Source: Candidatus Nitrosocosmicus franklandus
Lineage (GTDB): Archaea > Thermoproteota > Nitrososphaeria > Nitrososphaerales > Nitrososphaeraceae
Direction: 5' to 3'
Assembly (NCBI RefSeq): GCF_900696045.1
Contig: NZ_LR216287.1
Location: forward strand, 1,240,001-1,304,000
Length of the DNA: 64,000 nt
The notes beneath the pieces were generated by a model, which worked only from the letters and a program-made list of their open reading frames with translations, made no database searches and was not told the origin of the DNA. Below are positions 35,923-37,883 of this stretch, in pieces. Position 1 is the first letter of the stretch. Each line of letters starts with the position of its first letter. A program made the translations under genes and the position numbers.

Positions 35923-37305
35923 ATGATGATGATAGGCAATAACGCATTTAATACAAAGATCCTCCACATCGGAATTGACGATACTGATTCTATAAACGGA
36001 AGATGTACCACTCATTTATCATATTTAATAGCAGGGATATTAGTTAAAAAATTCCATGCAGAATTTATCGATTTTCCATTATTAATACGATTAAATCCAA
36101 ATGTTCCTTTTAAGACAAGAGGTAACGGTGCGGTATGTCTAAGGATCAAATGTAATTACTATGAAAAAATCAAGGAAGAAATTACGCAAATTGTGGAGAA
36201 ATACTCCGAGATCGGGTATGGTGCTAATCCTGGTTTAGCATTTTATGAAGAAAATAACATTAGCAAAGATTTGTTACAATTTAGCAAGAATGCAATGGAC
36301 ACCATATTAAGTAAGCAATTAGCCATAAAAATTGCGAAAAAAAATAATATTCAATTTCGACTATTCGGAAAAGGTCATGGGATTGTAGGAGCCCTCTCTG
36401 CTATAGGATGTCTTTTGGATTCGGATCACACTTTTGAAACGCTAGCATACAGACGAGAACAAAATATAGGAAAAATCAGGAAAACTAATGATGTAAAAGT
36501 AAAAAGATTAAGCGACGAATCATATCCATACACATATAATAACTTTGACAAAAAAAACTCTAGGATTCTGATTACACCCCACGGCCCTGATCCAGTGTTT
36601 TGTGGTATCAGAGGCGAAGATCCTTTATTGACTTTGTTTTTTCTAAAAAATTTGTGTATAGAAGAAGAGCTAGATGGCTATATGATATTTAGATCTAATC
36701 AAGGAACAAACTTACATCTTACAAAAGAGAACAAAGTGACAGACATGAAACCTTATACGGCAGGGCACATTAATTGCGAAGTAGCGACAACCCCAAATAC
36801 AATTAAAGGTGGACACGTAATATTTAAAATAAAAGACAAGTATAATTGTATGTTACCTGTTGCAGTTTATCAACCGACCGGTCTGACCAAAATTGCGAAA
36901 AAGCTAACAATAGGCGATAAGATCGAGATAGGGTATGGGGTACATCTGAAATCAAATAATCAAACTACGCTTAATTTAGAATATTTGGTTGTTAAAGAAT
37001 TGGTAAGGGTTTTTGAGGTAAAAAATCCTGTTTGTACTAAATGTTCAAAGAGTATGAAGTCAGAGGGAAAAAATAAAGGATATCAATGCTCAGTATGCAA
37101 AACAAGGATTGGATCAGTAGGAAAGATAAAGAGTGAAAAAGATAGAGAAATCAATAGTGGTTTGTATATTCCAGAACCTATTGCACATCGCCACCTCACA
37201 AAGCCATTGCCAAGATATGGGATAGAAAAAAGATTTGATAGATTTGACATAATACTCATGTTAAAAAGTATAACATGGATCAAGAATAGCGGGGGGTTGA
37301 TTTGA
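35923..37305 (+). CDS. tiaS: tRNA(Ile2) 2-agmatinylcytidine synthetase
   Basis: Modifies C34 of the CAU anticodon of tRNA-Ile2 to agmatidine so that it reads AUA. 460 residues: N-terminal kinase-like domain with GIDDTDSINGRCTTHL (catalytic Asp cluster), RLNPNVPFKTRGNGAV, a central domain, an OB-fold part near residues 275-365, and a C-terminal zinc ribbon (CTKCSKSMKS ... CSVCK). Start taken as the first of three ATGs; MIGNNAF is equally likely. The last 19 bp overlap the 3' end of the initiator tRNA-Met gene on the opposite strand. Confidence 0.92.
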   Translation: MMMIGNNAFNTKILHIGIDDTDSINGRCTTHLSYLIAGILVKKFHAEFIDFPLLIRLNPNVPFKTRGNGAVCLRIKCNYYEKIKEEITQIVEKYSEIGYGANPGLAFYEENNISKDLLQFSKNAMDTILSKQLAIKIAKKNNIQFRLFGKGHGIVGALSAIGCLLDSDHTFETLAYRREQNIGKIRKTNDVKVKRLSDESYPYTYNNFDKKNSRILITPHGPDPVFCGIRGEDPLLTLFFLKNLCIEEELDGYMIFRSNQGTNLHLTKENKVTDMKPYTAGHINCEVATTPNTIKGGHVIFKIKDKYNCMLPVAVYQPTGLTKIAKKLTIGDKIEIGYGVHLKSNNQTTLNLEYLVVKELVRVFEVKNPVCTKCSKSMKSEGKNKGYQCSVCKTRIGSVGKIKSEKDREINSGLYIPEPIAHRHLTKPLPRYGIEKRFDRFDIILMLKSITWIKNSGGLI

Positions 37306-37307
37306 AC

Positions 37308-37331
37308 ATACGGCTGGCTTTATGGCACAGT
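37308..37331 (-). other. Initiator tRNA-Met intron 2 (24 nt, T-stem 52/53)
   Basis: Bulge-helix-bulge: GCGG/CCGT central helix (one G-U), bulges TTA and ATG, inner CTG/CAG stem. Cutting restores the T-stem GGTTG/CAACC. Confidence 0.83.
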
Positions 37332-37366
37332 AACCGCTCTGCGGGTTATGAGCCCGCCGGGATAAC

Positions 37367-37383
37367 CTAGCCCCTAAAAAGGT
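37367..37383 (-). other. Initiator tRNA-Met intron 1 (17 nt, D-loop 18/19)
   Basis: Bulge-helix-bulge: AGCC/GGCT central helix, 3-nt bulges AGA and AGG, inner CCT/AGG stem with a TTTT loop. Cutting between bulge bases 2 and 3 restores a normal D-loop with G18G19. Confidence 0.85.
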
Positions 37384-37402
37384 CTGGCTTCCCCACCCCG
37401 CT

Positions 37403-37710: not shown

Positions 37711-37755
37711 TGCGGGAGATGGGATTTGAACCCACGGACTCCTACGAGATGAGGT

Positions 37756-37771
37756 GTCTCAAATCCTGGTT
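37756..37771 (-). other. tRNA-Leu intron 2 (16 nt, position 37/38)
   Basis: CTCA/TGAG central helix with bulges GAA and ACA, at the canonical site. Only about 23 nt of transcript separate the starts of the two introns. Confidence 0.83.
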
Positions 37772-37778
37772 TCTGAGC

Positions 37779-37795
37779 CTCGTGCTTTTTACCGT
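37779..37795 (-). other. tRNA-Leu intron 1 (17 nt, anticodon stem 30/31)
   Basis: CGTG/CACG central helix with 3-nt bulges AGA and AGG. Cutting between bulge bases 2 and 3 joins TGAG to G and completes the anticodon stem. Confidence 0.82.
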
Positions 37796-37852
37796 CTCAC
37801 GCCTTTGACCAGGCTGGGCAACTCCCGCATTAATTATTCTTAAAAAAATCCA

Positions 37853-37860
37853 CATATATT
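37853..37860 (-). promoter_or_regulatory. TATA box of tRNA-Leu
   Basis: AATATATG (minus strand) lies 25-32 bp upstream of the tRNA 5' end, the usual spacing for an archaeal tRNA promoter. Confidence 0.55.
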
Positions 37861-37883
37861 CTAATAAAAACAAAACATTCAGC

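Follow-up and report, generated by a model that had tools for sequence, protein, structure and literature searches.

Archaeal tRNA genes interrupted by several introns are established (PMC4033280, PMC3293823, PMC3218864), and those of the Thermoproteales, Caldiarchaeum and the Thaumarchaeota carry two or three short bulge-helix-bulge (BHB) introns at canonical and noncanonical sites. The description of tRNAscan-SE 2.0, for which a Thaumarchaeota intron model was trained, reports 107 noncanonical introns in that group and notes that some archaeal tRNA introns lie so close together that one must leave before the motif of the other forms (PMC8450103). The tRNA-Leu of Sulfolobus tokodaii has an anticodon-stem intron cut by recombinant EndA in vitro; it bears this intron only, and its anticodon is given as both GAG and CAG (PMC4307357). 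The gene described here has the multi-intron organisation with canonical and noncanonical sites, and an anticodon-stem intron like that of S. tokodaii. It codes for tRNA-Leu(CAG) and is found in a window of 64,000 nucleotides (nt), the whole stretch analysed, from the single-contig 2.84-Mb genome of the soil ammonia-oxidising archaeon Candidatus Nitrosocosmicus franklandus (contig NZ_LR216287.1, positions 1,240,001 to 1,304,000). Closely spaced archaeal tRNA introns are already known and this type of gene is not new; no description of this exact gene, or of its pair of sites flanking a 7-nt anticodon exon, was found in the literature, in a search that left out supplementary tables and GtRNAdb.

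Organisation and conservation of the gene

The tRNA-Leu(CAG) gene is read on the minus strand, which the original prediction did not specify, from 37828 (5') to 37711 (3'), and is interrupted by two introns. Its 5' part is GCGGGAG TT GCC CAGCCTGGTCAAA GGC G TGAG, followed by intron 1, ACGGTAAAAAGCACGAG; the short exon GCTCAGA precedes intron 2, AACCAGGATTTGAGAC, and the 3' part reads ACCTCA TCTCGTAGGAGTCC GTGGG TTCAAAT CCCAT CTCCCGC A. Exon 1 (33 nt, 37796-37828, tRNA positions 1-30) provides the 5' strand of the acceptor stem, the D arm, G26 and the TGAG of the anticodon stem (27-30). Intron 1 (17 nt, 37779-37795) is inserted at 30/31, intron 2 (16 nt, 37756-37771) at the canonical site 37/38, and between them lies the 7-nt exon 2 (37772-37778, positions 31-37) with the CAG anticodon at 37773-37775. 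Exon 3 (45 nt, 37711-37755, positions 38-73) codes for the long variable arm, the T arm, the 3' strand of the acceptor stem and the discriminator A.

Each intron is framed by a central helix of four base pairs with a 3-nt bulge on either side, the predicted cut falling between bulge bases 2 and 3. The first helix pairs CGTG of exon positions 25-28 (37798-37801) with CACG of intron 1 (37781-37784), with bulges AG^A and AG^G; the second pairs CTCA of positions 32-35 (37774-37777) with TGAG of intron 2 (37758-37761), with bulges GA^A and AC^A. Removal of both introns gives the anticodon arm TGAGG CTCAGAA CCTCA in a standard cloverleaf, whose pairs are all standard in the 14 distinct sequences found in the genus. 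The CAG anticodon, the long variable arm, A73 and orthologues with a near-identical mature sequence are the traits of tRNA-Leu(CAG), and the locus is very probably a functional gene of that kind with two independent BHB introns.

The two-intron structure proposed by the original prediction was borne out when all solutions that yield a five-base-pair anticodon stem, T33 and two perfect four-base-pair central helices were enumerated: there is a single one, with introns at 30/31 and 37/38 and the two helices just described. No two-BHB solution arose in 2000 dinucleotide shuffles of the anticodon arm, and when the letters of the introns were shuffled 2000 times, both helices survived once. A direct repeat, GAG, makes the first junction ambiguous if this gene is taken by itself; it is fixed at 30/31 because the relatives end in AT^G, AA^G or AC^G.

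Each of the 15 Candidatus Nitrosocosmicus genomes contains the gene. Its exons are nearly invariant, exon 2 being identical in 15/15 (other genera were also compared), while the intron interiors differ in length and sequence; even so, neither central helix has lost its pairing in any of the 14 distinct sequences, where substitutions on one strand are accommodated as G-T pairs. A putative promoter with a TATA-like block (TTTATTAGAATATATGTGG / TTTATTAGAATATATGT), ~20-40 nt upstream of the tRNA (37829-37868, minus strand), is kept across the 15 congeners. In the family Nitrososphaeraceae the gene model matches 70 of the 70 genomes searched; the best match spans 115-136 nt in most of them, which fits two introns, and only ~85 nt in a few (G029, G046 and G059 among them). 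Altogether 49 distinct two-intron orthologues were gathered from Nitrososphaeraceae and three other families. Covariation over the 36 genes with perfect helices shows pair 27 of helix 1 as T-A, T-G or C-G and pair 26 as G-C or G-T. The inner helix of intron 1 is clear and lineage-specific in several other genera, which identifies a real BHB intron rather than a chance reading.

Order of intron removal

The original prediction held that the two motifs use overlapping flanks and that such a tiny internal exon requires ordered splicing. The overlap is confirmed. Exon bases 25-28 go into helix 1 and bases 27-31 into the anticodon stem; bases 27-28 are shared and the two structures are therefore mutually exclusive. 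The anticodon stem also serves the second BHB as its outer helix, so that intron 2 has its full outer helix only once intron 1 has been removed. Intron 1 has at most two outer pairs, and its inner helix is weak in this gene and of 3-5 base pairs in some relatives.

The comparison of structures before and after removal of an intron, suggested as a check of the original prediction, was carried out on 35 precursors by constrained folding. With intron 1 in place, the second motif in its complete form has a median modelled cost of 12.7 kcal/mol; with intron 1 out this drops to 3.7 kcal/mol, and every one of the 35 shows the decrease. The first motif costs a median of 3.9 kcal/mol with intron 2 and 3.3 kcal/mol without it. 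It is probable, at roughly two chances in three, that intron 1 leaves first. Ordered splicing is favoured by the folding, but "requires" was too strong a word.

Several points weigh against departure of intron 1 first. The second central helix alone can form in the precursor at a moderate median cost of 4.7 kcal/mol, again by constrained folding. The energy drop is in part geometric, because a stem closed over an intron that is still in place inevitably carries a high cost. Here, moreover, the tail of intron 1, GAG, can stand in with G31 for some of the outer helix. Unconstrained minimum-energy folds were uninformative: they show neither motif nor, mostly, the mature anticodon stem. As free folding misses the mature cloverleaf in most sequences, thermodynamics alone cannot settle the order.

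The two introns may instead be removed independently and in either order, EndA tolerating a second motif that has no outer helix and the proximity of the sites being mechanistically irrelevant. This is the less probable course, though a serious one. Both central helices fit in one nested structure (median 5.9 kcal/mol, constrained folding) and heteromeric archaeal EndA is known to cleave relaxed motifs (PMC4090602, PMC4307357); the gain of the complete second motif upon loss of intron 1, uniform among the modelled precursors, speaks against it. So does the pattern of mismatches: all 49 distinct genes have a perfect helix 1, but 14 of the 49 have a mismatch in helix 2, which suggests reliance of the second motif on its outer helix and is expected if that motif alone has a strong one. 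It is unlikely, at the other extreme, that splicing is strictly ordered, with removal of intron 1 building the second substrate, and that Nitrososphaeraceae and the families near them retain this dependence as a checkpoint in the maturation of the tRNA that decodes CUG.

If intron 1 does leave first, its helix would form between exon bases 25-28 and the intron independently of intron 2, and EndA would cut at this motif, and likewise at the other, after the second of the three bulge bases. Joining of the exons by RtcB would bring together bases 27-31, whose pairing with 39-43 would give the second motif its outer helix. Intron 2 would leave next and the anticodon loop CTCAGAA would close. Expression of the precursor and its cleavage, like the order of splicing, are what we infer from sequence and models.

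Splicing enzymes

The genome encodes two proteins of the EndA family (PF01974), with PDB matches that include 2cv8 and 5x89, and also RtcB. The 184-amino-acid EndA protein aligns over its length to the archaeal endonucleases 2cv8 and 3p1z. The second protein, of 231 amino acids, does not have the DHAPYLV histidine motif present in the shorter one, which suggests that the two are catalytic and structural subunits. The enzyme is predicted to be of the alpha2beta2 type, the form that a review assigns to Thaumarchaeota and links to relaxed noncanonical introns (PMC4090602).

Alternative readings of the locus

ARAGORN does not report the tRNA-Leu(CAG) gene and neither does Rfam at its gathering score, the Rfam tRNA model giving only 18.8 bits. 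Common tRNA finders thus overlook genes such as this twice-interrupted one. Being missed by both programs is what a decayed or unexpressed tRNA carrying insertions might also show, but that origin is highly improbable: the exons are almost invariant in the 15 congeners while the introns vary with their pairing kept, the upstream block is conserved, and a second full-length copy was not found in the genome. Equally improbable is that only one intron is real, or that the two sites mark alternative ends of a single longer insertion; short introns always permit some alternative registers, and one alternative site pair occurs in 2 of the 36 relatives, but taking out any single stretch of this gene fails to leave an acceptable anticodon arm together with a BHB, and either intron is found by itself in relatives, where its helix is the same. 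Both readings were set aside on the strength of conservation and enumeration.

Skipping of exon 2, by use of the 5' site of intron 1 with the 3' site of intron 2, was rejected by eye as a poor motif, the pairing of CGTG with TGAG giving one Watson-Crick pair, two wobbles and one G-A mismatch. A role as an integration site was rejected as well: the 29 bases at the 3' end of the tRNA occur only once in the 64-kb window.

Neighbouring tRNA gene

An initiator-like tRNA-Met(CAU) is encoded on the minus strand of the window at 37288-37402. It apparently also has two introns, in the D loop (~17 nt) and in the T stem (~52/53), and is missed by ARAGORN and Rfam. The gene is 90-100% identical in 15/15 congeners and lies near tRNA-Leu(CAG) in most of them.

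Evolution of the two intron sites

Relatives within the class, sampled by best matches per genome so that the intron states are examples, show all four possible states. Both introns are found in families f1, f6, f7 (with a mismatched second helix) and f11. The 30/31 intron alone occurs in f15, in both Leu(CAG) and Leu(UAG), and in Leu(UAG) of f5, the 37/38 intron alone in Leu(CAG) of f5, and neither in examples from f2, f4, f9, f10, f13 and f16. At the level of single genes, L199, L203 and L204 carry the 30/31 intron alone and L200 the 37/38 intron alone. Since each intron occurs alone, the two were gained or lost independently, and the 7-nt exon merely results from the closeness of their sites.

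In the same genome, the paralogous gene for tRNA-Leu(UAG) (G000:C1:1673166-1673287, minus strand, L109/L234) shares the 30/31 intron, with helix CGCA/TGCG, but the intron that follows it, near 37/38, has no clean four-base-pair central helix. The same trait of the second intron is seen in another member of the family, L272. A further gene of the same genome, L110 (G000:C1:624771-624886), is a tRNA-Leu(UAA) that seems to be interrupted by introns in the D loop and at 37/38. Outside the class, in the same phylum, the tRNA-Leu(UAA) gene L306 reads by eye, outside the enumeration, as having introns at 30/31 and 37/38 around a 7-nt exon, ACTTAAG. It belongs to another isoacceptor and a distant lineage, and suggests repeated origin or spread of this combination of sites.

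A single tRNA family thus provides a natural series, with both introns, either alone or neither, for testing how an order of splicing originates. The same series is suited to testing how archaeal endonucleases handle overlapping motifs.
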